NCBI RefSeq assembly: GCF_032302195.1
Contig: NZ_CP135275.1
Coordinates: 7,399,001-7,463,000, forward strand
Reading direction: 5' to 3'
Source of the DNA: Paenibacillus sp. MMS20-IR301
Lineage (GTDB): Bacteria; Bacillota; Bacilli; Paenibacillales; Paenibacillaceae
DNA length: 64,000 nucleotides
Position 1 is the first letter of the stretch, and each line of letters begins with the position of its first letter. The notes under the pieces were generated by a model. It saw nothing but the letters and a program-made list of their open reading frames with translations, had not been told where the DNA came from and did no database searches. Positions 1,809-61,601 of this stretch are shown one piece after another. The position numbers were made by a program, and so were the translations under genes.

Positions 1809-1877
1809 ACCTTTTAAGATGGAAAAATCACCTTTTAGGAGCAAAGACTTAAAAAAAGGCGATTGAGCTACTATATT
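1809..1877 (+). promoter_or_regulatory. LytTR-type direct-repeat operator and promoter of the thiopeptide operon
   Basis: Two direct repeats, ACCTTTTAAG (1809-1818) and ACCTTTTAGG (1830-1839), start exactly 21 bp apart, two helical turns. AgrA/ComE-type LytTR regulators bind pairs of about 9-bp direct repeats with this phasing. A -10-like TATATT lies at 1872-1877, about 32 bp downstream of the second repeat, with only a poor -35, as expected of an activated promoter. The only LytTR regulator in the window is encoded at the far end of this cluster, so it is the natural ligand. The operator call rests on sequence pattern only. Confidence 0.65.
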
Positions 1878-1910
1878 GTTGTAAAAGAGAAGAGGAAAGA
1901 GGAGCTGGAA

Positions 1911-3677
1911 ATGAATCTGATTGCGGCAATCTTGGATAGGATTGAAACAGGTTGTCCCAATAATTCCATTTCTGACTTATATCTGCGGATTTCGGGGATG
2001 TCTGTATTCATCTCACTTACCGGTAAAGAAATTGAGTTGCACCGCAAAGTTGATGTTTGTGTTGCTGTCGGGCATTCCAAACTGTATGTATTTCCACTGA
2101 AGCCGCAAGGGGGAAATTGTGTAAACAGCTTTTTAAGCAGGCTGAATTTATATTATGAAAGCTTCTTTATCTCTAATTCTAATACCCGGCTCTTTGAAAC
2201 TATAAAGAGAATCAAGGGGGAACTGTTGAATAGGACGATTGATTTTCCCCCGCATAAATCAAGTAGGGGTGAATCTTTAAGTTACTTGTCCGTTACTTAT
2301 GATCCATGGAGCATTAAACAAGAGGTGTTTGTTCAAGGACATGGATGCCCCGGGTGTACAAGTGCAAATGTCAATCAGATCCGGCAAGAGGAATTTCAAT
2401 ATATAGCTCCCGTAAAAGCAGCAAATAATTATTATCAAACCCCGCCCTCAGACAAATTATTAGAGATGATCTGTTCAGAGTTGCCGATATTCATGAGCAG
2501 ACAAGAGTACAAGGAGGGGTTATATAAAAGTGATGTTTTCTTCTTTAATCATCATTTTGGCCAATATATGAATGCTTCCAGTCTTAAAGGAAATTCTGAG
2601 CAAAGCATGAAGCTAGCGATCTTAGAAGCTGTTGAAAGATATTCCGGTACATGTAAACCCAGCAATCAGGTTACTTACCGTGGAAGTTACGACAAACTCA
2701 TTGAAGAAAAGAAAAAGATTGTGAATGTACAAGAGTTTGGTTTAGAAGGACAAAACAAAACTGTTGTTGACTGGATTGAGGTGTTCTCATGGAAAGCACA
2801 GAATCAAGTATTAATTCCGGAGGAACTGGTGTATTACAAACACCGCAGGAATAATAATTTACCTATTATTGGAAATTCAAATGGAAATTCAGTAGGCACA
2901 AACCTTATAGAATCTGTTTTTTATGGTGTGCTTGAAGTAATAGAAAGAGATGCATTTCTGAATCACTGGTATTTGAGGAGAAGGCCCAAGCGAATAGACT
3001 TATCTTCTGTAAAAAGTAAAGGAACAATAGCTGCAATCAATAGAATCCAGGAGCTTGGATATAGTTTGCACTGCTTCGATATAACTACCGAACTTGGAAT
3101 TCCAACAATATGGTTATTTGCAGAGGGTTGTGTGGAACCTTCATTTGCCACCTACACGACAACAGGGATAAGCATAGATCCAGCGAAGGCTTTGGATAAA
3201 GCCCTTGAAGAAATGCTATATGCATTCCTTACCTATACAGATTTTGACACAATTAAAGAACAAGCCTTGAGGGTATTAAGCGGTAAAGTTAGTGTTATGC
3301 AGGATCATCCGTTATTGTACGCTTTACCACAAATGCGGGGAGAATTCGACTTTTTGTTTGGGGATACGATAGAGGAACAAGACTTTGACGATAATTTTCC
3401 TGAGTTTATCCCCGCCGAAATCAACCTTACTGCGAAGTTGCAGCATTTGCTAACGCAAATCGGGCAGCTCTATGGAAATGTGTATATTGCAGATCTTACT
3501 CCAAAAGGGTTCATAGATTACAACATTAAAGCGGTCAAAGTAGTGATTCCTGGCCTCCAGCAACTTTGGTTTGGAGCAGATTACATAAGTATTTCTGAGC
3601 AGAGATTAAGGCAGATTGCGAATTATTGGAAAATGGTAACATATGAAGTAAACGTGGGCATGCATCCTTATCCGTAA
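1911..3677 (+). CDS. YcaO-family protein, thiopeptide cluster (copy 1)
   Basis: A protein of about 588 residues with an N-terminal region of about 150 residues containing CPGC, then a YcaO domain. Typical nucleotide-binding blocks are seen: KGNSEQSMKLAILEAVER (about 225-243), NGNSVG and LEVIERDAF (about 323-348), and GISIDPAKALDKALEE. YcaO enzymes use ATP to cyclise Cys/Ser/Thr to azolines on a leader-bearing peptide. The protein ends MHPYP, a partly degenerate form of the C-terminal PxPxP found in azoline-forming YcaOs. The ATG is chosen because AAAGAGGAG lies about 8 nt upstream; a TTG 16 codons earlier would overlap the promoter. It is the first gene of the operon. Its division of labour with the second YcaO protein is unknown. 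Confidence 0.85.
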   Translation: MNLIAAILDRIETGCPNNSISDLYLRISGMSVFISLTGKEIELHRKVDVCVAVGHSKLYVFPLKPQGGNCVNSFLSRLNLYYESFFISNSNTRLFETIKRIKGELLNRTIDFPPHKSSRGESLSYLSVTYDPWSIKQEVFVQGHGCPGCTSANVNQIRQEEFQYIAPVKAANNYYQTPPSDKLLEMICSELPIFMSRQEYKEGLYKSDVFFFNHHFGQYMNASSLKGNSEQSMKLAILEAVERYSGTCKPSNQVTYRGSYDKLIEEKKKIVNVQEFGLEGQNKTVVDWIEVFSWKAQNQVLIPEELVYYKHRRNNNLPIIGNSNGNSVGTNLIESVFYGVLEVIERDAFLNHWYLRRRPKRIDLSSVKSKGTIAAINRIQELGYSLHCFDITTELGIPTIWLFAEGCVEPSFATYTTTGISIDPAKALDKALEEMLYAFLTYTDFDTIKEQALRVLSGKVSVMQDHPLLYALPQMRGEFDFLFGDTIEEQDFDDNFPEFIPAEINLTAKLQHLLTQIGQLYGNVYIADLTPKGFIDYNIKAVKVVIPGLQQLWFGADYISISEQRLRQIANYWKMVTYEVNVGMHPYP

Positions 3678-3692
3678 AAGGAGAACTTTAAA

Positions 3693-6218
3693 ATGACTAT
3701 TTCACCAGTGTTTATCCGTAGAGATACTAGTTTCTCAATTAGTTCAATGCATTTTCTAATGGAAGACAATCTGCTTGTACTGCTGAAGAGAAAGAATGAA
3801 GTAGGCGACCGGTTTAAAGAAACCCAGGATAACGTCATAAAGCTAATGGAGCAAGAAATATACACGGCCGACGAATATGCACGAAAAAAACTGCTTAAAC
3901 TTAAAAGAAAAATCATTAAAGGTGAATTTCCCGATTTATCGATAGTAGAGACTGCTGAATTAAAGCATGCGCTTGATTGTTATATTGATATTTTTGAAAA
4001 ATACAAGTCCGCTCAGCAAAGACTCGAAGAAGAATTCATTCAAGCTTTTAAGAATGAGCGAAAAAGTCTGCAACAGGTTTTTAAGAACAGAGAGCTTCAG
4101 AACGCAGTGGGTATTACTATCGGGGAAGAAGTATATAACAAATTAAATAATTATCTAGATACAAATACTGAAGAACATAATAGAAATCTGCGTAAACTGG
4201 ATAATTTCCTGCTGAAATTTCTAACTAGGGCGTCATTGAAAACAAGTCCCTTAGCCAACCTGACAATTACCGGCGTTTTTGATGGTACAGAAAAAAAGTC
4301 GGTTAATAAATTGTACACTAAGTTAAATTATGCCGTTCTTTTTAATCTTATAAATTCCATTTGTCTTGAAGAATCTATATTGCCCTCTTTTGAATATGTT
4401 ATAAACGATACGTTCATTGAATCCGGGGATTTCTATTATGTTACAACTACAACAAGCAGCAAGCAGGCACAATTAAATCTGTATAATAATGCACAGCAGT
4501 TAGGTTCAATTAAAAGGAATGCTCTTATCGATTACATTTTTAAAGAACTGAGAAGCCGGCAATTTTCTTATTCAGATTTCCATAAGCTTTTCCGGGAGAG
4601 CATTTCCGATGAGAAGCAAAGAAATAATATCCTGATAAAATTGATGAAAAGCGGATTTATTTTAAGAGTGGATTACTTTATGGAGACAGACAAAGATTTA
4701 TTGGAAAACCTGATTCAGTTTCTGTATCAAGTAAATTACAGAATGGATATTATCGGTAAATTCGAGAGATTACATGAATTATGTTCCCCAACGGAAGTAA
4801 TCATGGAGTTTGCCACAGCCAAAGAAATCTACTTGATTATAGAAGAATTATCAGATTTATATCAGGTGGATAAAGTAAATCGTAAAAATATGCTGTACAT
4901 AGATTATATAAAGCATGATCAACAAACGGACAGCAATCATATTGCAGACCTAAAACCGCTGTTGGAGGAGTATCAATATTTAACATTAGCTTTTGATCCT
5001 ACCCAGAGAAGCCGGTATGTGGTAAGCCGGAAATTTAATGAAAAGTTCGGAGAAACCTATATACCGGGAAATAATAAGGAGCTCTCAGAGGTTCTAAGAT
5101 TTATTGGCGAATCTATACAGCAGACAGAGGAAGCTAATATTTTCAACGGGATCTATCCTTGGAACAAGATTTACGAGGAGCCGGTATTAAACCAATATAA
5201 TCAAGCAGCCAAAAGCTTTATGAAATCTATCGAAGATAGGGAACCGTATGCTGAAATTATTTTCACATTAAATGAACTCAAGCATTTTACCGGTCCAATC
5301 CGTGAGATAACGAAGCTGGATCTGATTTCACACTCGTTTTTTTATCAGCACAGCCAAGAGTTCCAAATTATAATACTTAACCATATCTACAGGGGATACA
5401 GTAACTTTATGGCCAGATTCATGAAGTACGGGCAGGTAAACCCGGATTTCAGAACGTATATCTCAGAATTCTTTGATTCCAAAAATATAATGGATCTTCA
5501 ATATTCATACGGATTCAACGCAAATATTCGTGATCCGATTGTCTCCAGAAATTTCATCTTACCCTATGACAACGGTCAAATGCATTGTGCAGATTGGAAC
5601 GATGTTTATATGTATTTCAATAAGCAGAATGGACTTCTTGAATACCGGGATAAAAAGACTGATGAGCAGATAAGACCGCTCTTCTTGGGAACGCTCATAT
5701 CTGCCTTTTGTCCGCCTATTCAAAATGTCTTTGATCTTATGTCATCTCACGGGACCATCTATTCTGATTTTGGTGAAATCGCCCTTAGAATGAAGATAGC
5801 GGAGAAGAAATTGAATGATATTGTGATTATTCCAAGAATCAGTATTGGTGACGTTGGGGAGTGTACAATTTCAAGGAAAAAGTGGCTGATAAAAACCAGT
5901 GTAATAAAAATTGAGGATGAACATGATGATTTTCATATTTGGGAAAAACTTAATGACTTTCTGGAAAAACAAGGGATAGGCGGCCGTTTTTATGTCCGGA
6001 ATTTCTTGATGGATCTGTTGCAGGAAACCAGCAAGGTGACAGATGCCAAACCGCAATTTATTAATATGTCATCGGTATCTCTTTTTAGGCTTCTGAAAAG
6101 TATTATCAACAATACAGCCTATATATTAATAGAAGAGGAACATCCGGTTGCCGAAGGTGATTATATCTCGGAATACATTATTGAGAACACTATAAAGGAT
6201 GATATTGTTCTATGCTGA
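3693..6218 (+). CDS. LanB-type dehydratase, glutamylation protein (split LanB)
   Basis: An 841-residue protein with features of the lantibiotic dehydratase N-terminal domain: the long helical N-terminus leads to FLTRASLKTSPLANLTITGVF (about residue 175-195), matching the family's RxSPxG-like block. It stops before the SpaB_C elimination domain found in full-length LanB proteins, as in thiopeptide systems where the glutamyl-transfer and elimination steps are separate polypeptides. The expected role is to glutamylate core Ser/Thr from glutamyl-tRNA. An AAAGGAG lies just upstream of the ATG. The 3' end overlaps the next gene by 7 nt, indicating translational coupling. Confidence 0.85.
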   Translation: MTISPVFIRRDTSFSISSMHFLMEDNLLVLLKRKNEVGDRFKETQDNVIKLMEQEIYTADEYARKKLLKLKRKIIKGEFPDLSIVETAELKHALDCYIDIFEKYKSAQQRLEEEFIQAFKNERKSLQQVFKNRELQNAVGITIGEEVYNKLNNYLDTNTEEHNRNLRKLDNFLLKFLTRASLKTSPLANLTITGVFDGTEKKSVNKLYTKLNYAVLFNLINSICLEESILPSFEYVINDTFIESGDFYYVTTTTSSKQAQLNLYNNAQQLGSIKRNALIDYIFKELRSRQFSYSDFHKLFRESISDEKQRNNILIKLMKSGFILRVDYFMETDKDLLENLIQFLYQVNYRMDIIGKFERLHELCSPTEVIMEFATAKEIYLIIEELSDLYQVDKVNRKNMLYIDYIKHDQQTDSNHIADLKPLLEEYQYLTLAFDPTQRSRYVVSRKFNEKFGETYIPGNNKELSEVLRFIGESIQQTEEANIFNGIYPWNKIYEEPVLNQYNQAAKSFMKSIEDREPYAEIIFTLNELKHFTGPIREITKLDLISHSFFYQHSQEFQIIILNHIYRGYSNFMARFMKYGQVNPDFRTYISEFFDSKNIMDLQYSYGFNANIRDPIVSRNFILPYDNGQMHCADWNDVYMYFNKQNGLLEYRDKKTDEQIRPLFLGTLISAFCPPIQNVFDLMSSHGTIYSDFGEIALRMKIAEKKLNDIVIIPRISIGDVGECTISRKKWLIKTSVIKIEDEHDDFHIWEKLNDFLEKQGIGGRFYVRNFLMDLLQETSKVTDAKPQFINMSSVSLFRLLKSIINNTAYILIEEEHPVAEGDYISEYIIENTIKDDIVLC

Positions 6219-7264
6219 CAACAATTAAATGCTTTTTATATGACAATATTAGACTGAACACCTTTTTGAAAGAAATTTTTAATTATCTGTCTATACATGA
6301 ATGCCCGGGAGTTTCATTGAAAAAGGGTTATGCTCAAGGTTTCCATATTTCAATCCGGATTGAAGAGGAAAATGAACCCTTCATTGATTTCATTAAAGAG
6401 CAGTATATCTTGTATACAGCTCCCGGAGCGGTAGACTATGAGAAAGCCGAGCGGCTGATTAAAGCAGTAGCAAGAATGGAAGAGAATGGGGAGGTTATGC
6501 TCCCGTTACTCCAGGACGGCAGCTTGCTTATATCTGGCGATCTTAATTTTAGTCCGAGAAAAAAGGTTTATAGCATACAAACTCAAGCAGCTATTGAAAA
6601 AATTCAAACAGAATTCCTCACCGGCATATATGCATATTGGTCGAATATTGATGAAAATCAGCAAAACTATATAATGGCATATTTATTTATGCTGCTGGGT
6701 TCGTATAGCCCCGATGGACTCAAATCAGGCTATTTGGCTATGCGTTCGAATTATGAATACTTTGTTGAGCAGTTAAAAGATATCGGCCATGAGGATAAAC
6801 GCAAGGAGTGGAAACACTATATTTCATTCCGGAATGAACAAGATCTTTACTTTATTCAAAATGGAGTAGCAGATTTTTTTGAGAAAAAATGCCCGGTTGA
6901 AAAGGAAGCAGAAAAATATCTTGAGAAGCTGCGGGAGCTCCTAAGAGATTCATATAACAACGGAGGAGTTAATACACAGGCTCTTTATTCGGCAGCTACC
7001 TTTTTTGAGCGGCATGAGCATTCCAGCAGTTTTCATCAATTATTTTATAAGAATAATGAATTCCTGGAAAATTATGAAGAAAAGAATTTTACTTTGTACC
7101 GGTTAATTCTGGGAGAAATATATTCTCTATTCCCGGAATTAAATATGAGCAATCTTAGGAAGCAGAAGATTACTGGACTGACTGCCGAGGCTGTTGAAGC
7201 TTACTATAAAATTTCATGGAAGGATGTTTATGACGGGTGGCTCAAAACGAATCGGGATATCTAA
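6212..7264 (+). CDS. Candidate pyridine synthase (SpaB_C-like fold), TclM/TbtD position
   Basis: A 350-residue protein with GFHISIRI near residue 45, a diverged counterpart of the GGPHIRLR strand of SpaB_C domains, and a helical second half containing SPDGLKSGYLAMRSNYEYF. Because a canonical elimination-domain protein is encoded separately at 10280-11152, this diverged relative best fits the thiopeptide cycloaddition enzyme. That enzyme joins two dehydroalanines into a six-membered N-heterocycle and expels the leader. This is inference from fold-level resemblance and cluster completeness; it could instead be a second elimination-like protein. It overlaps both neighbours. Confidence 0.6.
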   Translation: MLTTIKCFLYDNIRLNTFLKEIFNYLSIHECPGVSLKKGYAQGFHISIRIEEENEPFIDFIKEQYILYTAPGAVDYEKAERLIKAVARMEENGEVMLPLLQDGSLLISGDLNFSPRKKVYSIQTQAAIEKIQTEFLTGIYAYWSNIDENQQNYIMAYLFMLLGSYSPDGLKSGYLAMRSNYEYFVEQLKDIGHEDKRKEWKHYISFRNEQDLYFIQNGVADFFEKKCPVEKEAEKYLEKLRELLRDSYNNGGVNTQALYSAATFFERHEHSSSFHQLFYKNNEFLENYEEKNFTLYRLILGEIYSLFPELNMSNLRKQKITGLTAEAVEAYYKISWKDVYDGWLKTNRDI

Positions 7265-8475
7265 TTGCGGACGCTCAGAACCTATTTCTATTTCACAACG
7301 GCGGATTGAAGGAGCTGAAATTACCTTCTTCGAACAAAGAGCATCTTCTTGCACAATTTGAAGCGCCAGAGGAAGTTATATTCTTGAACAGCGAAACTAT
7401 AGCAAAGCTTATACCAGATCGTCCTGAATTTATAAGCTCTGAGGTGACGTGGAAGGATGTAGCCTTAAATTCTAATACTATTTTATATATCAGGGAAGAC
7501 TGGTATTCAAATGATAGAGTGAAAAATGAAATAAATCTTGTGAAAACAGCAAGCGGTAATTATACAGATGTTAATGATATATACAGAGAAATATTTTATA
7601 GCCATGTGCAGAAGAATTCTGAGTTAGCCTATTTGTTCGAGGGCGAAGCTGATGGATCGTTAATTAGTGAAAAGTTGCTCATGGCTGTATTGGATTTTGA
7701 AGTGAAGAGCTTTACTGACATGTATCCGGCTGGCCGGGACAGGGATTTACTTCAATCAATCGATACACTGTTAACGCTAAACGGCAGGCTCATTTTTGAT
7801 ATCACGGTGAAGGATACGACTATTATTGAGGTTCCGTACCGGGTATCTGAGAGTTTAGATCAAACCTACAGCATTAGTGAGGATGTACAAACCTCTTTTT
7901 TTGATACGATGATCAATAATTTCCAGTATTTTATTAAAAAAATATACGGCAGCAATTATATCGTATTCACCTCTTACGATCATATGTTAAAGAGGCTTGT
8001 GCGGCACTGCTTTGAACAACAGCTCTTTGCGCTTGAGACTTATCAGCTGAGTTATTCGGATTCCATTCATGAGCAAGCCGTTGCAGAACTGTTTTCTTTT
8101 AACGGGATCGATCATAGTCAAGTCACTTACGAATTAACAAGGGATACCAAATTCAATGCTATTTGTGTCAAGGCGCATCTTGATAATAAAGGCTCATCCT
8201 GTTGTTATTATGGGACTCACTTAACGGAGCTTGTAGAACAGGCAGATAAAGAATTGATTGTGAAATATATACAGAATAATTTCGCGGAGATCTCTTCTTC
8301 TTCTGAGGCTGTAGCCGGAAGTTCTGATGAGCAAAGAAATCATCCGGCTTTGGAATTTAAGTTTGAGGAGTTTAATCGTTTTATTTCTGATCATTTCATG
8401 TTGAGGATAGCTAAGCTGCCTCAGTTAGCGGATATTGATGTATATATAGCAGGGATCGGTGATTTTGATGATTAA
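7237..8475 (+). CDS. Unrecognised thiopeptide-cluster protein, possible cyclodehydratase partner
   Basis: A 412-residue protein starting at GTG inside the end of the preceding gene (28-nt overlap). I see no catalytic motif. The N-terminus alternates short strands (GYLIADAQNLFLFHNGG), and a C-terminal part has FNAICVKAHLDNKGSSCCYYG. It lies just before the second YcaO gene, where other thiopeptide clusters encode the leader-binding/E1-like partner of the cyclodehydratase. A recognition-element or ocin-ThiF-like role is therefore a reasonable guess. I cannot see a ThiF nucleotide-binding motif or CxxC pairs to support it, so function is left open. Codon and base use match the rest of the cluster. 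Confidence 0.5.
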   Translation: MAQNESGYLIADAQNLFLFHNGGLKELKLPSSNKEHLLAQFEAPEEVIFLNSETIAKLIPDRPEFISSEVTWKDVALNSNTILYIREDWYSNDRVKNEINLVKTASGNYTDVNDIYREIFYSHVQKNSELAYLFEGEADGSLISEKLLMAVLDFEVKSFTDMYPAGRDRDLLQSIDTLLTLNGRLIFDITVKDTTIIEVPYRVSESLDQTYSISEDVQTSFFDTMINNFQYFIKKIYGSNYIVFTSYDHMLKRLVRHCFEQQLFALETYQLSYSDSIHEQAVAELFSFNGIDHSQVTYELTRDTKFNAICVKAHLDNKGSSCCYYGTHLTELVEQADKELIVKYIQNNFAEISSSSEAVAGSSDEQRNHPALEFKFEEFNRFISDHFMLRIAKLPQLADIDVYIAGIGDFDD

Positions 8476-10252
8476 CTTAATCAGGAATGATTCGGCAGCC
8501 TTTATGCACATGAAAACTCTTTTGAGCCAGGAACAGATTCCTTACCGCATAGCGGATTGCTTTGAGGCATCTACAGTACTCTATGTAACAGATGTTCTTG
8601 GAGATTACCTGGAAGAAACAACAAATAGAGTGATGTCAATTTTCTACTTTGAAAATCTTTTAATGATGGGCCCATTCAATAGTCAGCATGACCCCGGCAA
8701 GCTAAGTGCAGCTATTATTGAAATGAGGAATCAAGGATTGAAGAATCTTCCGGTGATTCTTTTCGGTAAAAAAATCCCGTTCCGGGCAGATGAGGCAAGT
8801 GATTCATTTCTTGTGAACTTTATAAAAGCTTTTGATCAGAAGGAAGAGCTGCTGCACGAATATTCAGACTCCTTATTTGTATTGAGCTGGAAGCATAATG
8901 AGTTTCTCCGATATAAATTAATCGATAAGAAACCTAAAGCTGCAGCTGATCTCAAACAAAATCATAACGATGATCAGAGAGTGCATAAAATTGGCTACTA
9001 TGACCATTTATACGATACGTACACTGCCAACTCAGGAGGCGTATTTATCCACCGCTATTTGGATCTGATGTCTAAGCATATTCCTGCATTCGGAACACAG
9101 CTGAAGGTATCAAGTAATTATACAGAATCAGGTTATGGACGTGGTTATAGCCGGGCGATAGCCAAGACCTTAAGTACAGTAGAAGCTTTTGAAAGATATG
9201 CAGGCATGTTCAATAAGACGGATGCGGAAACGGTATGCTCTACTTATAGGCAGATCAAGGATCAAGCCTTAGATCCCCGGAAGTTGATTTTGCATTCAGA
9301 GGAAGAGTATTCCAATCCAAACTTCAAATTAAAGCGTTATGACGATAATCTCAAATTCAACTGGATCAGGGCGACTTCTTTAAAGAATGGAAAGGAAGTG
9401 TTTATACCTGAACAGGCGGTTTTTTTTGGTTCAAAAGAAAAGAAAGAAAAGGAAAATTATTTCTTGTATGAAACCTCAAATGGCGCTGCAGTAGGGGGAA
9501 GTATTAAAGAAGCCATCCTCTATGGTTTATATGAAGTCATTGAAAGACATAATTTTCTTTCCACTTGGTATAGCAGGGCTAAGTGTACAGAAATAGCTCT
9601 GGAGTCTGCTGGAATTAAGGAAATCAATAACTTAAATGTACTTCTAAAACGCGATAACAAAGAGATAAAACTGTATGATATTTCAGCAGATCTAGGTATC
9701 CCAAGCATATGGGCGTTAGTCCGGTCTAAAGACCAAAATGCAGTAATGGCGGCATATAACGCAGCAGGCACTAATCTCTCACCGGTCAAAGCCGCGGAAT
9801 CGGCCCTGCTGGAGGTTTGTACTTCTTATCCTATTTATGAGTACCTGTTGAGGCACGATTCCAAGATTATGGACAGGGCCAAATATGTTATTCAATCAGC
9901 AGAGCGTGTAACAGAATTTCAAGATCATGTATTGTATTACTCTTCATCCCGAAATTCGAAATACTTACAATTTGCTGATAACGGAGAATCCGCGAAAGAC
10001 ATCAGAGATGTATATAAAAATGCCGGGGAGCCCTCCTCCAAGGGTACCGAGGAATATTTAAGAATAGTTCTTGCAAAGTTGCTGTCTTGTTTTGAAGATG
10101 TTCTTTATTTAGATATCACTCCTGATTTCTTAAGGAATGAAGAATTATTTTGTGTGAAGATTATTGTTCCGGGAATGTTGCCAATGACGTTCGGACAACA
10201 GTATAAGAGAACGATATATGCAACTCACAAAGAGCCCCACCCCTTTCCATAA
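8468..10252 (+). CDS. YcaO-family azoline-forming protein, thiopeptide cluster (copy 2)
   Basis: A protein of about 594 residues with a N-terminal region of about 170 residues including MGPFNSQ, reminiscent of the partner-domain GP block but without its cysteines. A YcaO domain follows: GYGRGYSRAIAKTLSTVEAF (about 222-241), NGAAVGGS (about 337), YEVIERHNF (about 355) and GTNLSPVKAAESALLE. It ends PHPFP, a full C-terminal PxPxP motif, so it is the better candidate for the core azoline-forming cyclodehydratase. ERD of copy 1 is ERH here. The start is uncertain: ATG 8468 with GGTGAT just upstream, or GTG 8459. It overlaps the upstream gene by 8 nt. Confidence 0.85.
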   Translation: MINLIRNDSAAFMHMKTLLSQEQIPYRIADCFEASTVLYVTDVLGDYLEETTNRVMSIFYFENLLMMGPFNSQHDPGKLSAAIIEMRNQGLKNLPVILFGKKIPFRADEASDSFLVNFIKAFDQKEELLHEYSDSLFVLSWKHNEFLRYKLIDKKPKAAADLKQNHNDDQRVHKIGYYDHLYDTYTANSGGVFIHRYLDLMSKHIPAFGTQLKVSSNYTESGYGRGYSRAIAKTLSTVEAFERYAGMFNKTDAETVCSTYRQIKDQALDPRKLILHSEEEYSNPNFKLKRYDDNLKFNWIRATSLKNGKEVFIPEQAVFFGSKEKKEKENYFLYETSNGAAVGGSIKEAILYGLYEVIERHNFLSTWYSRAKCTEIALESAGIKEINNLNVLLKRDNKEIKLYDISADLGIPSIWALVRSKDQNAVMAAYNAAGTNLSPVKAAESALLEVCTSYPIYEYLLRHDSKIMDRAKYVIQSAERVTEFQDHVLYYSSSRNSKYLQFADNGESAKDIRDVYKNAGEPSSKGTEEYLRIVLAKLLSCFEDVLYLDITPDFLRNEELFCVKIIVPGMLPMTFGQQYKRTIYATHKEPHPFP

Positions 10253-10279
10253 TATGCTCTATTGAAAGAAGGGATAGAC

Positions 10280-11152
10280 ATGATCTGGCATTCCTATCAT
10301 ATCTACTACTACGATCAACTAAAACAGGATTCTTTAATATTGTATATATGTAATCAGATGGAACAAGCAGCCTTAAATAATACCATTAGCAAATGGTTTT
10401 ATATTAGGTACTGGGAGGGAGGGCCTCATATAAGATTAAGGTATCTGTCTGAATTTGAGCATTCTGAAATAATTGAGGCGATCAATGATTTTGTACAAGC
10501 CAATAAATCCGGAATTAGGATAAGCAAACAAGCTTACTATGAATCAATAAATCTAAACAGTGAAGGTGATACCCGGCAGCTGGAGCAGCTTCCCTGGTAT
10601 CCTGAAGGTGAAATAGTGAACATTCTATACAAGCCTGAATATGAGCGGTATGGCGGAAATGAAGCAATCGGCATGTCCGAAACTTTATTTATGTACTCAA
10701 GTCTTCTGGCTGCTGAAATTATCAGTAAATTAAAATCAAGCAGCTTCATAATAAGATGGCTGACTGCCCTGAATTTTATGAATGAATTACTGTCTTATCT
10801 AGATAATCACCAGTATTTGAATATACCCGCAATAGATTTCCTGAACAACTGTACTCAATTCTGGAGGAATTCATCTGGGGAGCTACCGGATTCTGTCCGG
10901 AAAATGTTGAAGCTAAACTATGAGAAAAGTAATAAAGATATTCAAATCAGACTTGAACAGGTTTTATTTGTTGAATGCGCAGCGCTGTTTCAGCAAATAG
11001 CAGCCGGAATTTCAACACTATATTGTGTTATAAATGACGATACAGCTTTCAGAAAGATTATATTTTCTCATATGCATATGTTTAATAATCGGCTGGGAGT
11101 AGAGCCGCTTTATGAAAATGAACTCTATTCAACCTTAATCGGAGGGGTTTGA
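10280..11152 (+). CDS. Thiopeptide-type biosynthesis protein, SpaB_C glutamate-elimination domain
   Basis: A 290-residue stand-alone SpaB_C protein. The signature strand FYIRYWEGGPHIRLRY (about 40-55) and the block YKPEYERYGGNEAIGMSE (about 115-132) are intact, and HMHMFNNRLGV lies near the C-terminus. In LanB enzymes this domain eliminates glutamate from glutamylated Ser/Thr to give dehydroalanine/dehydrobutyrine. It is the missing second half of the split dehydratase. ATG 10280 is preferred over TTG six codons upstream because GAAGGGAT precedes it. The stop is immediately followed by the start region of the dehydrogenase gene. Confidence 0.85.
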   Translation: MIWHSYHIYYYDQLKQDSLILYICNQMEQAALNNTISKWFYIRYWEGGPHIRLRYLSEFEHSEIIEAINDFVQANKSGIRISKQAYYESINLNSEGDTRQLEQLPWYPEGEIVNILYKPEYERYGGNEAIGMSETLFMYSSLLAAEIISKLKSSSFIIRWLTALNFMNELLSYLDNHQYLNIPAIDFLNNCTQFWRNSSGELPDSVRKMLKLNYEKSNKDIQIRLEQVLFVECAALFQQIAAGISTLYCVINDDTAFRKIIFSHMHMFNNRLGVEPLYENELYSTLIGGV

Positions 11153-11153
11153 G

Positions 11154-11972
11154 CTGGACAATCCATCTAACATTTCTCAAATCGATTTTTTCAACTACTC
11201 TGAGTTATTCAATCAAATCAATGATCAGGAGATGAGAGCGGCCGGATGGTTCATTAATTATAAGCCTAATGATGATTATCTGCTGCCGCCAAGCATCTAT
11301 ACACCGGCAGCCTATGACGATGTGTATGAATTGCAGTACAAGTGTCCTGAGGAAGGTGATTTATTTGATATTATCCGGGCCAGGAAGTCGTCGCGATTAA
11401 ATCATCTGAATAAACCATGGACTCTTGAAGAATTGAGTGTGCTGCTTGAGGAAGGACTTGGATTACGAGGAGAATCCCGCCTGGTAATGAAAGAAAATAA
11501 AAAAGAAAAGATAGAATTCAGGATGTATCCATCAGGAGGCTCGCTCTACCCTATTCATGTATTTCTTTATATTAACAAACTGCAGTCAGTGCAGCCGGGG
11601 TTTTATTATTATGCTGTGACTGAGAAAAAATTGTATAGAATCCATAAAGAAATTAAGGATTCGGACTATGAAAAACTGTTCCCGATGAGTAAATACAAAC
11701 TCGACCAAGATAATTGTGATGTTTTACAAAGTGCGTTCTCCCTATTCTTCATCGCAGATTATTATTATGCATTCAATAAATATGGAAAGCTCTCTAATAA
11801 GCTCTGTCTGCTAGAATGTGGTCATATGGCGCAAAACTTGCTGCTAATCTCAACTTTGCTGAAGAAGAACAGTCTGCCGATCTGCGGTTACTTCCGTGAT
11901 AAGGTCGAGCATTACTTGGGGCTTGCTAATGATCCGTACAAGTTTTGTCACTACTCTATTATCTTCGGATAA
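11154..11972 (+). CDS. SagB-type FMN-dependent azoline dehydrogenase, probable CTG start
   Basis: A nitroreductase-fold protein with IRARKSSRLN, MYPSGGSLYPIHVFLYI and ECGHMAQNLLL blocks typical of SagB/ThcOx dehydrogenases, which oxidise azolines to azoles with FMN. The first ATG (11232) has GGAG directly abutting it, too close to work well. The frame is open upstream, and a CTG at 11154 stands 6 nt after GGAGGGG, 1 nt past the previous stop; no ATG/GTG/TTG lies between. The extra 26 residues (DFFNYSELFNQINDQ) look coding. The CTG start is inference; starting at ATG gives 246 residues. Confidence 0.75.
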   Translation: MDNPSNISQIDFFNYSELFNQINDQEMRAAGWFINYKPNDDYLLPPSIYTPAAYDDVYELQYKCPEEGDLFDIIRARKSSRLNHLNKPWTLEELSVLLEEGLGLRGESRLVMKENKKEKIEFRMYPSGGSLYPIHVFLYINKLQSVQPGFYYYAVTEKKLYRIHKEIKDSDYEKLFPMSKYKLDQDNCDVLQSAFSLFFIADYYYAFNKYGKLSNKLCLLECGHMAQNLLLISTLLKKNSLPICGYFRDKVEHYLGLANDPYKFCHYSIIFG

Positions 11973-11998
11973 AATGCCAAGGAAGTGAGCATTGTACT

Positions 11999-12802
11999 AT
12001 GTTGAATCCGTTCTATATAACGAAGGAAGACCAGAATACCTCGATTGAGTTATGCAGTGTCTATGATGAGAGTTTTACTGCAGCTACATTCAGGAAGGTT
12101 GCGGATCAAACTGCAGTTCTCGCCTTAATACATGAACAGGATGAGGCTGCTGTGGAATCCGGCCATACCTTGCACCAATTAAGAAAGCAATTGATTCTAA
12201 TTAGTAAAGAAAAAAGTGAAATCCTTCACAAGATTAAGGCGATATTTGATGACTCAACCTCCATTTACAACAGAGCGTATACCTCTGCCTTGACTTTGAA
12301 TTTTTTTAAGAAAGCCAGATTTGTGCCTGTAAACGGGTTATGTGAAGAGTTAAATCCACTTTTCTCATGGAACCGGGGGAATAAAGAGGCTGACGAAGAA
12401 CATCTATTGATATTCTATCAAACCATCCAGGAATTGACTTCATTATTGGAGGAAATCAGGCTGTCAGGCAGAAACAGGACGGTCTGCTTCGTACAGATGG
12501 ATGGGGCGAGGATGCTTTCCATTGGACCTGTGTATGAGCTAACCAGCAATAACCTGCTATCGTTTTCATATATTCTCCCGGAGCAAAGATCCAGAATTCA
12601 AATCAAAAGTATGCAGTCTATAGAACCTGTTAATCAATACTTTGCTGAAGAATATCTTAAAGCGTGTGTGGACATCAGCACAGATTATTTAACGTATGAG
12701 TCATGTTTGCTTGAGCGGCGCCTATTTATTGAGGGGGATTCTGTCTGTTTATCAAGACTTATTCCGCAGGACTACAGCCTAAAGGTGGGAGAGTATGTTT
12801 GA
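11999..12802 (+). CDS. Unrecognised protein of the thiopeptide cluster
   Basis: A 267-residue protein with no motif I recognise. It has a charged helical middle (LHQLRKQLILISKEKSEILHK), a patch with FFKKARFVPVNGLCEELNPLFSW, and a C-terminal block with SIGPVYELTSNNLLSFSYI. There is no signal peptide or membrane segment, so it is probably cytoplasmic. ATG 11999 is chosen because GGAAGTGAG lies about 10 nt upstream and it starts after the previous stop; an upstream frame extension overlaps the dehydrogenase gene. Its place between the dehydrogenase and the ABC transporter, with 8 nt overlap to the ATPase gene, implies a role in maturation or self-protection, but which cannot be told. Confidence 0.55.
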   Translation: MLNPFYITKEDQNTSIELCSVYDESFTAATFRKVADQTAVLALIHEQDEAAVESGHTLHQLRKQLILISKEKSEILHKIKAIFDDSTSIYNRAYTSALTLNFFKKARFVPVNGLCEELNPLFSWNRGNKEADEEHLLIFYQTIQELTSLLEEIRLSGRNRTVCFVQMDGARMLSIGPVYELTSNNLLSFSYILPEQRSRIQIKSMQSIEPVNQYFAEEYLKACVDISTDYLTYESCLLERRLFIEGDSVCLSRLIPQDYSLKVGEYV

Positions 12803-13622
12803 ATTCAGAGACGTGGCAAAGTCCTTTAATAACAAGGCAGTGCTGAATGAATTTAATGTTTGTGTGGAACGTGGAGAGTGTGTGGCGCTGCTGGGGCCAA
12901 ATGGAGCTGGGAAGACGGTTTTTTTAGAAATTTTATTAGATTTTTTGCATCCTGAGAAGGGCGAAGTTTTAAGGGGATTTGATTTAATCAGGGATATTGG
13001 TTTTATGCCGCAAAAGGATTTGTTCCCGGATAATCTGAAAACACACGAGATTCTTCAGACACAACAGGCCTATTTTGGGAAGAAAAACAATGAAGCAATA
13101 GACCGGTTATTAAATGAACTGGAATTGTCCGCCAGCAGGAACGTCTTCACAAAACAGTTATCAGGTGGACAAAAAAGAAAATTGACATTTATTAAAGCAA
13201 TAATAAATCATCCAAGACTGCTACTGCTTGATGAGCCTACAGTTGGAATGGATCTGGAAGGATGTATTCAGTTCTGGGATAAAATCAATGAAATGAAAAA
13301 ATCAGGACTAACCACAATCATTACCCTGCACCATTTTGATGAATTAAATGAGTATTGTGACAGATTTCTGTTCCTGAAGGATGGAAGGATAGAAAAGGAT
13401 TTGTCCAAAAGTGACATTGATAATTTGGAGATATATGAGATTGCCGGAGATGAAGCTCTATTGAAGGAGATTCAGCAAGTCACCGGCGGATTCGTTGAGC
13501 ATAATAAATTAACTACTTGTTACCCGGAGAGATTAGCTGAATGGACAATCAACAGAGAAATAGTTGTCAATAAACGAAAAGCTTCATTGAAAGATTTCTA
13601 CCAAGTCATATATAAAAGGTGA
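12795..13622 (+). CDS. ABC transporter ATP-binding protein, probable thiopeptide export/immunity
   Basis: A 275-residue ATPase with Walker A GPNGAGKT (about 34-41), signature LSGGQKRKL (about 126), and Walker B LLLLDEPTVGMD (about 148) followed by the switch histidine in TIITLHHFDEL. It is the CcmA/drug-exporter type. The adjacent gene encodes its membrane partner. The ATG overlaps the end of the preceding gene, with GGGAGAG upstream. In a peptide antibiotic cluster this pair most likely exports the product and protects the producer. Confidence 0.85.
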   Translation: MFEFRDVAKSFNNKAVLNEFNVCVERGECVALLGPNGAGKTVFLEILLDFLHPEKGEVLRGFDLIRDIGFMPQKDLFPDNLKTHEILQTQQAYFGKKNNEAIDRLLNELELSASRNVFTKQLSGGQKRKLTFIKAIINHPRLLLLDEPTVGMDLEGCIQFWDKINEMKKSGLTTIITLHHFDELNEYCDRFLFLKDGRIEKDLSKSDIDNLEIYEIAGDEALLKEIQQVTGGFVEHNKLTTCYPERLAEWTINREIVVNKRKASLKDFYQVIYKR

Positions 13623-13629
13623 GATCGAA

Positions 13630-14367
13630 TTGGGCACACTGATATCATTAGAATTTTTGAAAATAATCCGAAATAAGAGATTTCTTACGTTCACTATTTT
13701 ATTCCCGGCAGTATTTTACTTAGGATTGTATTATTTAGGTCCCAGTGTATCAAGCACAATGGATGATAAAAGCTTAATCTTATTTATCACATGTTCCTTA
13801 TACGGAACACTGGGCAACGGTGTAATCACATTAAGTACAAGAATTACCCGCGAAAAAGAGTATATGCTGACTGCAATTAAAACAACACCTTTTTCGATTG
13901 CTAAATATATATGCACTGCTTCCATAGTCCAGTTTGTGCTAAATGCGCTCATTATAGCGGTGCTTGCAATGATTGGGGTGGGCATTTGCGGGCTGCATAT
14001 TAATGCCATCATGTTCAGGCAGAGCGGAATAATACTAATTTTAAGCCTTTACTTTATATTTGTCGGTATTATGCTAGGGTTCATCTTCGATGTGGTCACT
14101 TTACAGTCTATTTCCATGCCGTTGTACTTTATATTAATTCTGGCCAATATTACGAACAAGCTGATTCCGCAAATGCCCGAAGCTATTACAAAGGTTCAAA
14201 TGCTGCTCCCTGGTTACTATGCGACGAATGTAATCCTAAAAGTGTACCAGCACTTGTCTTTTTCTAAAGAGCTTCTGATCCTGTTAAGTCATATTATATT
14301 CATGCTAATGGCGGTACTTATCATACTGAGTATCTACAAAAGAGGAAATATCAAGCGAGGGATATGA
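13630..14367 (+). CDS. ABC-2-type transporter permease
   Basis: A 245-residue integral membrane protein with about six hydrophobic segments (for example FLTFTILFPAVFYLGLYYL, ILILSLYFIFVGIMLGFIF and LLILLSHIIFMLMAVLIIL). This is the size and layout of ABC-2 permeases that pair with the upstream ATPase. Translation starts at TTG, preceded by AAAGGTGAG, 7 nt after the ATPase stop. The substrate is presumed to be the mature thiopeptide. Confidence 0.8.
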   Translation: MGTLISLEFLKIIRNKRFLTFTILFPAVFYLGLYYLGPSVSSTMDDKSLILFITCSLYGTLGNGVITLSTRITREKEYMLTAIKTTPFSIAKYICTASIVQFVLNALIIAVLAMIGVGICGLHINAIMFRQSGIILILSLYFIFVGIMLGFIFDVVTLQSISMPLYFILILANITNKLIPQMPEAITKVQMLLPGYYATNVILKVYQHLSFSKELLILLSHIIFMLMAVLIILSIYKRGNIKRGI

Positions 14368-14370
14368 TTA

Positions 14371-15456
14371 ATGGAGGAGCTCGTTGGATTAAGAAGGAGT
14401 TTGCACAAACATCCGGAAATCGCTTTTCATGAGCTGGAGACCCGGGCCATCATAAAAGCCTTTGTTACAGAACGGGCGGGTTTATTCGAGCCATTCTATG
14501 ATGGACAATGTGGATTGGTATTTGTGAAAAGATGTAAAGACAAACCTAAAAAGACGGTTGCTTTCCGTGCAGAAATGGACGGGCTGCCGGTTAAGGATGA
14601 GAAGAAAACGGATTATGCCAGCTTGAATCCAGGATATTGCCACAGCTGTGGTCATGATGCCCATATGGCCATGCTGCTAAGTGCGATGGAGAAAATAAAT
14701 GATGCTGAACTGGAGAATGAGCTTGTCTGTATTTTTCAGGCGGGAGAGGAGGTCTTTGGCGGGGCTAAATATCTGATGGAAAAAATATCGAACTTATCCA
14801 TTGATTATTTGTTTGGGATGCACATCACTCCTGATATGAAGGCGGGCTCCTTTTCAATCGCAGCAGGCGAGATGATGGCTTCCAGCTACACAGCTGAGGT
14901 TCAGTTGAATCTGGCATGCAGCCATGTCGGGCAAGGGGCAGATCGTCTGGAAATATTCAACTTGCTCTACGAGGCTGCTAATCAGTTCAATAATGATACT
15001 CAGCTGATGAAGATCCCGCATATCCGGGATAATGGCTATTATAACGTGAACGCTAGTGAAATAACGCTTTGCATTAATATTCGAAGCTTTCTGGAAAAGG
15101 ATTGGAAGAGTGAAATTATTAAATTAGTTAAAAGAATTTCTGACAAAGCAGCATTAAACAATGCGACTTTCAAGGAAATTTCATATTACCCGATACTAAT
15201 AAATACAGAATCAGCTACCAGAAAGGCAACAGAGATTATCGGAAAATGCGGCGGTAATCTGGTGGAAGCCCCAAGAAGCTATTCAAGTGATGATTTTGCA
15301 TTTTATCGAAATAGGATTAAGGAAACTGCATATTTTTTTATAGGCTGCTATCTCGGACCTGAACATCAATGCCATACCGCGTCATTTGATTTGGATGAAA
15401 GCTGCCTGGCACACGGCGAAGGAGTTATAGTAGAGCTGTTCAATTCGACATTCTAG
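14371..15456 (+). CDS. M20-family metallopeptidase/amidohydrolase
   Basis: A 361-residue M20D-type enzyme. Its metal-ligand motifs look intact: CHSCGHDAHMAML (about 90-102), AGEEVFGGAKYL (about 127), GMHITPD (about 149) and CHTASFDLDE near the C-terminus. The dimerisation-domain motif usually read as GxGGHxAxP is replaced by a diverged SHVGQGADRL. Relatives hydrolyse N-acyl amino acids or small peptides. The gene starts 3 nt after the permease stop and lies just before the precursors. A role in leader removal, C-terminal trimming or resistance is plausible but unproven. Confidence 0.8.
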   Translation: MEELVGLRRSLHKHPEIAFHELETRAIIKAFVTERAGLFEPFYDGQCGLVFVKRCKDKPKKTVAFRAEMDGLPVKDEKKTDYASLNPGYCHSCGHDAHMAMLLSAMEKINDAELENELVCIFQAGEEVFGGAKYLMEKISNLSIDYLFGMHITPDMKAGSFSIAAGEMMASSYTAEVQLNLACSHVGQGADRLEIFNLLYEAANQFNNDTQLMKIPHIRDNGYYNVNASEITLCINIRSFLEKDWKSEIIKLVKRISDKAALNNATFKEISYYPILINTESATRKATEIIGKCGGNLVEAPRSYSSDDFAFYRNRIKETAYFFIGCYLGPEHQCHTASFDLDESCLAHGEGVIVELFNSTF

Positions 15457-15492
15457 GTGAGAAGTATATTAAGTAAAGGAGGTGAAATATTT

Positions 15493-15675: not shown

Positions 15676-15721
15676 ATTAAGAAGCATACCAAATAATTTA
15701 ATTTGAGAGGATGGAATAATA

Positions 15722-15904: not shown

Positions 15905-15932
15905 GTTGTGCGGGATGGAGAAAAAAGCACAG

Positions 15933-15983
15933 GGTGAATTTAAATAATATGGGGGCTGCACCTGCCATTTCTAAAAATTCACC
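15933..15983. repeat. Inverted repeat between precursors 2 and 3
   Basis: GGTGAATTT and AAATTCACC form a 9-bp perfect stem around a 33-nt loop in the 170-nt gap between precursor genes. It has no T-tract. It could be a partial terminator or an mRNA-stabilising hairpin that sets the ratio of precursor to upstream enzyme transcript; there is no further support. Confidence 0.4.
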
Positions 15984-16074
15984 ATGAGCTTATTTATTGT
16001 AGCATAGTAAAGCAGCTTACACATAATAATCAGAACTGTAAATAGGATAAAAACATTGAGAGGAAGTATTATTA

Positions 16075-16254
16075 ATGGATAAAGAATTCAATAAAGAAAC
16101 GCTGACGGATTTATTCCGTGATATCGAAGTTGAAACCATTGAGCTTGATAATGTGCAAAATGTTCCAAGCATTGCGGCATCCGGGGGGAGTAATTTCAGC
16201 TGTTCCACCTGCGGATCTTCTTCATCTTCGACTTGTTCCTCGAGTTGCGGCTGA
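16075..16254 (+). CDS. Thiopeptide precursor peptide 3
   Basis: A 59-residue peptide (MDKEFNKETLTDLFRDI then the shared 41 residues) ending in the same Cys/Ser-rich core. The ATG follows GAGAGGAAG. Some 28 of the 41 shared codons differ silently from precursor 1, with no amino-acid change. It is the last gene before the operon terminator and is separated from precursor 2 by 170 nt, so it may have its own control. Confidence 0.9.
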   Translation: MDKEFNKETLTDLFRDIEVETIELDNVQNVPSIAASGGSNFSCSTCGSSSSSTCSSSCG

Positions 16255-16288
16255 TAAAGATTAACAATATAGCTAACTCCTTTTTAAA

Positions 16289-16318
16289 GAACGAGAGAAT
16301 TCTCTCGTTCTTTTTTTT
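16289..16318 (+). terminator. Strong terminator ending the thiopeptide operon
   Basis: A perfect 22-bp palindrome (arms GAACGAGAGAA and TTCTCTCGTTC) followed by eight T. It separates the biosynthetic genes from the two-component system. Confidence 0.9.
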
Positions 16319-16410
16319 GGATGGAATTAGCAATTTGTTTTTGATATAATAAAGGGATAAATTACCTTATTTTTTATATTTTACATCAGTGAGGAGTCTT
16401 TTGTTGGAGT

Positions 16411-17733
16411 ATGATTATAATCCAATGTATTCAATTATTTTCTACTTTATTCATCTTTTTGTTAGTTTCAAATAAAAAAAATGGTTTTTTTGAAATAATG
16501 CTTTGCCAACTTGTATTCTTGTTGCTATCAATAATTTTAAAAGAAAATTTGAACTATTCATTTATAGAAATAATACTTGTAGTGTTGTTTAGTTTTTATA
16601 AATTTAAATGGAGAAAATATTTGTTACCGCTCTTTTTTTCAGTATGTGCTATTTTATTAAATTCTTTATTGAATTATCTATTAATTAACTATGCTTTTGA
16701 TTTAATGAATGCTCTAGTTGACCAATGGTTCTCAGATAATGATTTTTACTTACAAGCCTTGTGTTCTTTTGCACCCATTATAGTAGTTTGGTCTATAAAA
16801 CGTATGTTGATAATATCGAATACTAAATTATTTAGAAGAATTCATAGAGCTTTGTATCTTGAGCAAAAGAAAATTCTTATCGTCAGTATTAGCATGGTTA
16901 CTACATTGTTAATTTTATTGCACGTTATCTTTTACTTTGAACAGATTGAAGGAGAAACCCAGCCTGAAAGAATACTCACTATAGTTTTATATACGTGTGC
17001 AGTAATGGGAATAATGTTGTTTATTAATAATCAATATATAAAAACTAAAAATTCTGAGCATCAAAAATTCAAGGAAACCCAGTTCCAGAATCTGGTCGCC
17101 TATGCTGAGCAAATGGAACTGCTGCATGATGAAATTAAGAGCTTTCGTCATGATTATGTCAACATTCTTACTAGTATTGAGCAAGCAATACTCATGCGGG
17201 ATATTGATCTTGTAAAAGAAATCTACGAAAAAACAATTAGACCTACGGGCACTTTAATGGAAAGCAATCATTTCTGTTTTATTAAACTTAAGTATATTCT
17301 GGTAGCTGAACTAAAAAGTATATTAGCCTCGAAAATACTTTTTGCCGAAAAGACTAAAATTGATTTGCATTTAGAAATTGAAGATTTTATCGAAAAGATA
17401 CATATGGATATAGTAGATTTTTGCCGTGTTCTCTCCATATTGCTAGACAATGCTATTGAGGCAGCGAAGGAAACGCAATCTCCCAAAATAATAATAGCCA
17501 TTATTGAAGAAAAGGAAGCCCAGCGAGTTATTATTAAGAATACAACTGCAGGCCAGGATATTGATATATTGAAGATTTGGGAGAAAGGGTATTCTTCTAA
17601 ATTCAACAATCATTCAGGTTTAGGATTATATGCTGTCAAGCAGCTGCTTGACCAAAACAGATATGTTACCTTGGAAACTTCCTACCATCAATGCTGGTTT
17701 TGTCAGAGCTTGATATTAATAAAAACGGGGTAA
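16411..17733 (+). CDS. AgrC-like sensor histidine kinase
   Basis: A 440-residue protein. The first about 210 residues hold around six membrane segments without a large extracellular domain. A cytoplasmic kinase follows, with the H-box SFRHDYVNILTSIEQAI (about 248), N-box LDNAIEAAKE (about 349) and G-box GLGLYAVKQLL (about 408). RHDY is typical of HPK10 kinases such as AgrC and ComD, which sense peptides at the membrane. GAGGAG lies about 14 nt before the ATG, a long spacing. TATAAT at 16345-16350 may be its -10. The partner regulator follows by 4 nt. No AgrB or AgrD is visible, so the mature thiopeptide is a candidate signal. Confidence 0.85.
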   Translation: MIIIQCIQLFSTLFIFLLVSNKKNGFFEIMLCQLVFLLLSIILKENLNYSFIEIILVVLFSFYKFKWRKYLLPLFFSVCAILLNSLLNYLLINYAFDLMNALVDQWFSDNDFYLQALCSFAPIIVVWSIKRMLIISNTKLFRRIHRALYLEQKKILIVSISMVTTLLILLHVIFYFEQIEGETQPERILTIVLYTCAVMGIMLFINNQYIKTKNSEHQKFKETQFQNLVAYAEQMELLHDEIKSFRHDYVNILTSIEQAILMRDIDLVKEIYEKTIRPTGTLMESNHFCFIKLKYILVAELKSILASKILFAEKTKIDLHLEIEDFIEKIHMDIVDFCRVLSILLDNAIEAAKETQSPKIIIAIIEEKEAQRVIIKNTTAGQDIDILKIWEKGYSSKFNNHSGLGLYAVKQLLDQNRYVTLETSYHQCWFCQSLILIKTG

Positions 17734-17737
17734 TCAA

Positions 17738-18493
17738 ATGATGAATATTTGTATTTTAGAGGATGATATTGTTCAGCAAAAGCGTCTGGAAAAAATTGTG
17801 GTAACATTGCTTGAAAAACACGGGATCTCTTGCAACCACTTATTTACAACCTCCAGAGCGGATAACTTATTATTAGAAATTGATACGAACTGCAGCAGTA
17901 TTTATTTTCTGGACATTCAAATTAAGAAAATGAATTACAGAGGATTAGAAATTGCCAAAGAAATTAGGGATAGAGATCCTTACGGATCAATAGTTTTTGT
18001 AACGACACATTCTGAGTATGCTCCACTAACTTATTCATATAAGGTATCCGCTTTGGATTTTATTGATAAAACACAAGCTGAGCTTGATTTCGCAAAACAA
18101 ATAGAAGAATGTTTATTGATAGCTAATCAAGAAAAATGTAAATTAAACTTACCAGATTATTTTATTTTTGATAATAATTATTCAAAGTTTAAAGTTCCAT
18201 TATATGAAATTTTATATTTTGAATGTATGGAGATTCCACATAAATTGAGGCTCGTAACCAAAACAAAAGTGATGGAGTTTTATGGGGAATTATGTGACAT
18301 CTCCCTTCACAATAATCAATTCTTCAGATGCCACCGCTCTTATATTGTTAATATTGCTAATATAGTATCCGTTCATAAAAGAGAGAAAAAAATAATATTG
18401 AAGGATGAAAAGCAATGTTATGTTTCTCGGAGACTGTTGAAGGATTTAATTCAAAGAATTGAAGAAGAAAGAATATTTTGCAATTACATATAA
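17738..18493 (+). CDS. AgrA-like LytTR response regulator
   Basis: A 251-residue protein: receiver domain (about 1-125) with acidic pocket LEDD and phosphoacceptor in YFLDIQI, then a LytTR DNA-binding domain (about 145-245) with ILYFECMEIPHKLRL, FFRCHRSYIVNIANI and LKDEKQCYVSRR. LytTR regulators bind paired direct repeats phased at 21 bp, such as the pair at 1809-1839. It should be phosphorylated by the adjacent kinase and activate the cluster. Confidence 0.85.
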   Translation: MMNICILEDDIVQQKRLEKIVVTLLEKHGISCNHLFTTSRADNLLLEIDTNCSSIYFLDIQIKKMNYRGLEIAKEIRDRDPYGSIVFVTTHSEYAPLTYSYKVSALDFIDKTQAELDFAKQIEECLLIANQEKCKLNLPDYFIFDNNYSKFKVPLYEILYFECMEIPHKLRLVTKTKVMEFYGELCDISLHNNQFFRCHRSYIVNIANIVSVHKREKKIILKDEKQCYVSRRLLKDLIQRIEEERIFCNYI

Positions 18494-47040: not shown

Positions 47041-47046
47041 ACTGGA

Positions 47047-48213: not shown

Positions 48214-48261
48214 TATGAAAAATCCTTTCCTTTGCGAAAAAAGAGTTTAAGAGTCAAAAAA

Positions 48262-61600: not shown

Positions 61601-61601
61601 A

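Follow-up and report, generated by a model that had tools for sequence, protein, structure and literature searches.

The 64,000-nucleotide stretch of the Paenibacillus sp. MMS20-IR301 genome analyzed here (the window) very probably carries an acquired thiopeptide biosynthesis island with two YcaO proteins, a split LanB dehydratase and a pyridine synthase. The island (17 kb; positions 1809–18493; Table 1) consists of a plus-strand run of overlapping or closely spaced genes, followed by the three precursor genes, then a terminator, and last the genes of a two-component system. An earlier note on this DNA had named these genes from plus-strand open reading frames, and the Pfam and NCBIfam domain searches agree with it. 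Judged from gene content, assignment to the pyridine-containing thiopeptides is well supported: the gene-level features tested are all present, since enzymes for azoles and for dehydroamino acids occur together with a member of the pyridine synthase family.

The protein encoded at 6212–7264 is related to the [4+2] pyridine synthases TbtD and PbtD. It matches the pyridine synthase model NF045556 (3.3e-16, 59 bits), which is matched by all 11 aligned members of its family. The single sequence gives only E 0.27 against PbtD; the profile of the 11 aligned relatives finds the solved structures of PbtD (5w98, 2.5e-11) and TbtD (5wa3, 6.4e-9) and thereby upholds the relationship on which the earlier thiopeptide assignment had relied. 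The gene is intact, and in the alignment of its product with 10 relatives (24–32% identity) 20 columns are invariant. Pyridine synthases in the full clusters of relatives are under strong purifying selection (ratio of non-synonymous to synonymous substitution rates, dN/dS, 0.079–0.084 in three pairs).

The dehydratase is split into separate glutamylation and elimination proteins, as in thiopeptides. The LanB glutamylation protein matches Lant_dehydr_N (PF04738, 3.3e-11), and its only solved-structure match is 6ec7, a lantibiotic dehydratase domain protein (6e-9) that is presumably TbtB of thiomuracin. The elimination protein scores 97 bits against TIGR03891 (cut-off 48).

Both YcaO proteins match PF02624 (YcaO1, 3.8e-54 for frame 1863–3677; YcaO2, 2.9e-67), and in alignment both carry the invariant columns of both YcaO groups. 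The start of YcaO1 is more likely the ATG at 1911, which has a ribosome-binding site, than position 1863. YcaO1 ends in HPYP and YcaO2 in PHPFP; an HPYP-like C-terminus is a mark of azoline-forming YcaOs. With TIGR03604, YcaO2 scores above the cut-off of 219 bits (251) and YcaO1 below it (197). A whole-genome search finds two YcaOs in the 7.69-Mb genome, both in the cluster. The SagB-type dehydrogenase scores 101 bits against TIGR03605 (cut-off 78), and the combination of YcaO cyclodehydratase and SagB dehydrogenase found in thiopeptides is therefore represented by two YcaOs and one SagB. The ocin-ThiF-like family TIGR03693 (F-protein of the thiocillin type) has no match in this genome, nor in any control genome.

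Two proteins (7237–8475 and 11999–12802) had been left unassigned, and an undescribed biosynthetic step had been suspected from them. Most likely, both assist the ring-forming enzymes as partner proteins, and this reassignment, made with moderate confidence, displaces the idea of a new step. The 7237–8475 protein has no Pfam or NCBIfam match, PF02624 included, and lacks a C-terminal PxP, and so does not qualify as a catalytic YcaO. Its residues from about 144 to 410 model as a degenerate YcaO by fold comparison; the ATP-site glutamates seem, by eye, to be lost. It is a probable partner of YcaO2 with a putative YcaO-like fold. A profile identifies its homologue in a distant cluster, that of genome G283 (E 1.4e-5, probability 80). 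The second protein, which likely starts at 11999, is a probable E1-like leader-binding protein (discrete C protein); profile comparisons with the protein in the same position in G283 and with the YcaO family are not significant.

Each of the three precursors has a leader followed by a Ser/Cys-rich core, as is typical of thiopeptides; the start of precursor 1 is more likely 15493. Over the 37 C-terminal residues compared, the precursors do not differ from one another, although at the DNA level the pairs differ there at 15, 26, and 21 bases. Every one of the corresponding 15, 25, and 21 codon changes is synonymous, a pattern far from chance that shows the core to be under selection. If the core starts after the conserved AA, it is SGGSNFSCSTCGSSSSSTCSSSCG. 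It lacks a Cys-Ser-Cys site. The motif SSSC followed by Gly or Ala ends the core here and in Clostridium manihotivorum, Paenibacillus piscarius, G163, and Streptococcus salivarius, and is absent from G283 and Latilactobacillus curvatus (five of seven core types).

If Ser1 is used for pyridine formation, Ser/Thr-azole-Ser-azole sites are predicted to give rings of 23, 41, 44, 47, 56, or 62 atoms, and a 35-atom ring is also predicted to be possible for the P. piscarius and S. salivarius cores. If Ser4 is used, closure at Ser15 would give a 32-atom ring. Known thiopeptide rings, as of 2020, have 26–35 atoms according to a source in PubMed Central (PMC) (PMC7210931). It is a tentative and rather doubtful proposal that the azole machinery comprises two catalytic YcaOs, a YcaO-fold pseudoenzyme and an E1-like scaffold, and that the ring (41, 44, 47, 56, or 62 atoms, at five of the six Ser1 sites) exceeds this range. 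If true, a 412-residue pseudoenzyme would add a new kind of partner to heterocycle formation, and a ring of more than 35 atoms would widen what pyridine synthases are known to make in nature.

In the proposed pathway, whose order follows that of other thiopeptides, the E1-like and partner proteins would bind the precursor leaders, and the two YcaOs, probably with a division of work, would make azolines from Cys and Ser/Thr, which SagB would oxidize to azoles. LanB and the separate elimination protein would convert other Ser/Thr residues to dehydroamino acids. The pyridine synthase would then join two dehydroalanines, closing the macrocycle and releasing the leader. The M20 enzyme may trim one end, the ABC (ATP-binding cassette) exporter would export the product, and the GHKL/LytTR pair would switch the operon on. 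The product is predicted to be antibacterial, and by analogy it may inhibit the ribosome or EF-Tu.

The pyridine synthase occurs in 17 of 394 genomes of the family, this genome included, and 17 loci from the 16 other carrier genomes were read. In the search of genome contigs, a single-sequence query found no loci and an alignment query 12. Because the pyridine synthase served to find these loci, its presence in them carries no evidential weight; that of the accompanying genes does. Nine of the 17 loci, six of them with Paenibacillus names, are full clusters with both YcaOs, LanB, a protein in the position of the 412-residue partner, the elimination protein, SagB, a protein in the E1-like position, the ABC pair and M20. 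Two loci have only the pyridine synthase, the partner position and YcaO2 within the stretch read, five have the pyridine synthase alone, and the remaining one (G283) holds a distant cluster with a single YcaO. On their upstream side, the nine full clusters have one to three precursors, a frame of 805–849 amino acids and a frame of 352–452 amino acids. Profile comparison identifies the former as a second LanB (probability 99.8, E 7e-28; four sequences); this homology was checked in eight of the nine, the ninth being judged by its frame only. It seems that a core module (LanB, pyridine synthase, partner, YcaO2, elimination protein, SagB, and E1-like protein) was joined by an accessory module (second LanB, its partner, and YcaO1), of which only YcaO1 seems to be left in the window. 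The cluster had been called complete, which needs qualification: two genes of the nine same-genus loci and of C. manihotivorum were not found here. G+C content is 53–58% in the six named Paenibacillus copies, 45% in G163, and 32% in C. manihotivorum. In G163, SagB and the E1-like protein are each present in two tandem copies (L027:11710–15050). The second LanB of C. manihotivorum (L049:823–4452) is split by a further reading frame (240 amino acids), and its loss may therefore be tolerated there too.

Several observations weigh against an active thiopeptide pathway of this design. The NF045556 score of the pyridine synthase is far below the orthologue cut-off (59 against 325 bits), which places the protein outside the equivalog, as a distant pyridine synthase rather than an orthologue of TbtD or PbtD. 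YcaO2 lacks two Cys pairs, likely zinc ligands, that are kept in all eight other YcaO2 rows, and the E1-like protein lacks two such pairs kept in all seven other E1-like rows. The degenerate-YcaO fold of the 412-residue protein comes from one model (mean predicted local distance difference test score, pLDDT, 64), and profile-profile comparison of its family with YcaO lends no support (E 0.044, probability 1.2, not significant); in a second such comparison the family gives E 0.025, the family of the partner preceding YcaO1 gives 0.011, and four others give 0.3–0.56. The second LanB and the partner preceding YcaO1 were not found in this genome in searches that had no positive control of their own, and the pathway could therefore be reduced. 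Finally, none of the five genomes with a solo pyridine synthase (0/5) has a YcaO or Lant_dehydr_C match, Lant_dehydr_N not having been searched; because these genomes keep the gene without a YcaO or elimination protein, the gene by itself is no proof of a thiopeptide.

The five solo genes encode full-length homologues and occur in P. albidus (G158), G231, P. monticola (G193), FJAT-27264 (G221), and P. agri (G157), at loci L031, L032, L033, L035:6441–7565, and L036:6418–7539. Their dN/dS values (0.056 and 0.068 in two close pairs, and 0.083 in a saturated third) are like those of full-cluster copies. It would be very unusual for a pyridine synthase with no known substrate to stand alone.

The missing second LanB and partner, together with the lost Cys pairs of YcaO2 and the E1-like protein, would fit a decaying, non-functional thiopeptide island, which is nevertheless unlikely. 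The remaining frames are open, and the precursor cores differ only synonymously; the Cys pairs of the E1-like protein are also absent from a relative 74% identical to it, so that the losses in this protein are not recent. Furthermore, the G283 and L. curvatus clusters have one YcaO and, likewise, no recognized second LanB nearby. A linear azole- and dehydroamino acid-containing peptide of the goadsporin kind, with a pyridine synthase homologue that no longer closes the ring, is improbable. The distance of this protein from characterized pyridine synthases, the lack of a Cys-Ser-Cys site and the existence of homologues without azole or elimination machinery, which indicates that the fold can serve something else, would all be in line with it. 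However, the intact gene with its invariant columns and the purifying selection on full-cluster homologues argue otherwise, goadsporin-type clusters as described in PMC4603692 have no pyridine synthase gene, and confirmation of the family by profile demoted the linear product to a rival.

In thiopeptins, a second YcaO installs a thioamide. A comparable role for a YcaO here, whether in thioamidation or in another non-azole change, would accord with two YcaOs in one cluster and with the low TIGR03604 score of YcaO1 and is equally hard to credit, because YcaO1 ends like azoline-forming YcaOs and the genome has no match to TfuA (PF07812; the control family was matched in 1 of 14, Methanosarcina acetivorans), so that nothing points to thioamidation, which was rejected.

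The lactazole cluster has one YcaO. Lactazole needs five enzymes, and it differs from the present core in its 32-membered ring and in the tail behind the motif (PMC7210931). In lactazole, Ser1 and Ser10-Ser11-Ser12-Cys13 are indispensable for the pyridine, and Trp2 and Ala14 are important (PMC7210931); this essential SSSC block recurs as C-terminal SSSCG or SSSCA here and in four of the six other core types. Geninthiocin and berninamycin have split azole enzymes (PMC6306032). Berninamycin, TP-1161 and geninthiocin share with the island a separate E1-like protein and YcaO, a split LanB, a pyridine synthase and a Ser-rich core, whereas the island differs in its short SagB and separate E1-like protein, M20, GHKL/LytTR control, core sequence and extra partner with a probable YcaO-like fold. 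According to a 2015 survey (PMC4603692), an additional fused cyclodehydratase is found now and then in thiopeptide clusters whose cyclodehydratase proteins are separate, and doubled YcaOs are therefore not new. Dehydrazoles, a class with a DUF4135 LanM-type dehydratase (PMC10676384), were rejected, as DUF4135 has no match among the cluster proteins scanned.

Closer counterparts are found in C. manihotivorum CT4 and P. piscarius, P. silagei, P. sinensis, P. dendrobii, and P. cookii, which have the core enzymes at about 29–42% identity; the CT4 core matches this core exactly at positions 9–23. They differ in that a second LanB and partner precede YcaO1. The S. salivarius megaplasmid pSaLI10 likewise encodes two YcaOs, the ABC pair, M20, LanB, a pyridine synthase, an elimination protein, SagB, a small partner, and LytTR and GHKL proteins, and its core ends in TCGSTSCSSCSSSCA. 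It differs in having nine precursors, a 175-residue protein in place of the 412-residue one, and a 258-residue protein before YcaO1; a BLAST search of its frames of at least 60 amino acids recognized no second LanB. The S. salivarius precursors are annotated as thiazolylpeptide-type bacteriocins. The label "Paenibacillus type" used previously is therefore too narrow. A single-YcaO thiopeptide-type cluster also lies on an L. curvatus plasmid typed as mobilizable (L078:8689–24323), and an L. sakei relative exists.

No paper on this cluster family is among the open PMC matches listed; most subscription journals lie outside that scope, and absence from print is not shown. No near-identical characterized cluster turned up, a database of characterized clusters not having been searched. 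The novelty seems to lie in the whole combination: the second LanB and partner in relatives, the probable YcaO-like partner, M20 and the core. The family would represent Firmicutes thiopeptides spanning soil Paenibacillus, Clostridium and oral Streptococcus, with no characterized product found in the literature searched, and, as some natural variants have the second LanB and partner and others lack them, the role of the second YcaO is open to direct testing.

Table 1. Features of the putative thiopeptide island (window coordinates).
Feature	Position	Strand	Evidence or remark
Possible LytTR operator	1809..1839	+	ACCTTTTARG twice, with 21-bp spacing, ahead of first gene
YcaO1 cyclodehydratase, extra N-terminal domain, C-terminus HPYP	1911..3677	+	PF02624; start from ribosome-binding site
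LanB glutamylation protein, first half of split dehydratase	3693..6218	+	PF04738 3.3e-11; 6ec7 6e-9
Pyridine synthase, [4+2] macrocyclase	6212..7264	+	NF045556 3.3e-16 (under cut-off); family profile to PbtD/TbtD
Probable YcaO2 partner protein, 412 amino acids	7237..8475	+	Structure model, fold comparison
YcaO2, main cyclodehydratase, C-terminus PHPFP	8459..10252	+	PF02624 2.9e-67; TIGR03604 over cut-off
Elimination protein, second half of split dehydratase	10262..11152	+	PF14028 5.7e-40; TIGR03891 over cut-off
SagB-type azoline dehydrogenase	11232..11972	+	TIGR03605 over cut-off
Probable E1-like leader-binding partner (discrete C protein), 267 amino acids	11999..12802	+	
ABC transporter ATPase (predicted export)	12795..13622	+	PF00005 3.3e-25
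ABC transporter permease	13630..14367	+	PF01061/PF12698 about 1e-5, under Pfam cut-off
M20 amidohydrolase/carboxypeptidase, presumed trimming enzyme	14371..15456	+	PF01546 3.4e-27; TIGR01891 over cut-off; YxeP structure 1.1e-33
Precursor peptide 1, 60 amino acids	15493..15675	+	
Precursor peptide 2, 60 amino acids	15722..15904	+	
Precursor peptide 3, 59 amino acids	16075..16254	+	
Intrinsic terminator after precursors	16286..16318	+	12-pair stem, then T run
GHKL-type sensor kinase	16411..17733	+	PF14501 1.6e-14
LytTR response regulator	17738..18493	+	PF04397 8.4e-20; PF00072 4.3e-10

The block is most likely an inserted island, because the collagen-like and SNF2 genes that flank it adjoin each other (about 90–860 bp apart) in three of six relatives, and the DNA between them in the window has no match in the stretches of any of the six (9–10 kb each). 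In the tree, the cluster sits on a long branch (1.38, support 50) that points to no donor. The block had been described as AT-rich, which holds against directly adjacent DNA (31–41% against 50–59% G+C); AT-rich DNA also occurs further off in the window, for example at 47–49 and 59–64 kb. Those regions (47000–49000 and 59000–64000) have 34–41% G+C within a window of mostly 50%, and are possibly other acquired DNA.

The 21-bp spacing of the ACCTTTTARG copies directly before the first gene is that expected for LytTR proteins. Because the paired pattern was derived from the site itself, its rarity carries no statistical weight; single copies show no enrichment (4 against 7.6 expected). The terminator pattern was found once against 0.6 expected from shuffled sequences. 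Alongside AgrB, GHKL and LytTR genes, the L. curvatus cluster carries a similar 21-bp repeat. In relatives of the P. piscarius kind, the neighbors encode a polyprenyl synthetase, a ComX-like peptide, a PDZ-matching kinase and another regulator (by family tests in L022 and L035). ComQXPA-like loci (L022:13408–17702, L031, L035:7674–11946, and L036), with a polyprenyl synthetase, a peptide of 57–60 amino acids, a sensor kinase and a LuxR-type regulator, adjoin a thiopeptide cluster and also orphan pyridine synthases. Their peptides have a Trp near the C-terminus (L022, L030, L031, L035, and L036).

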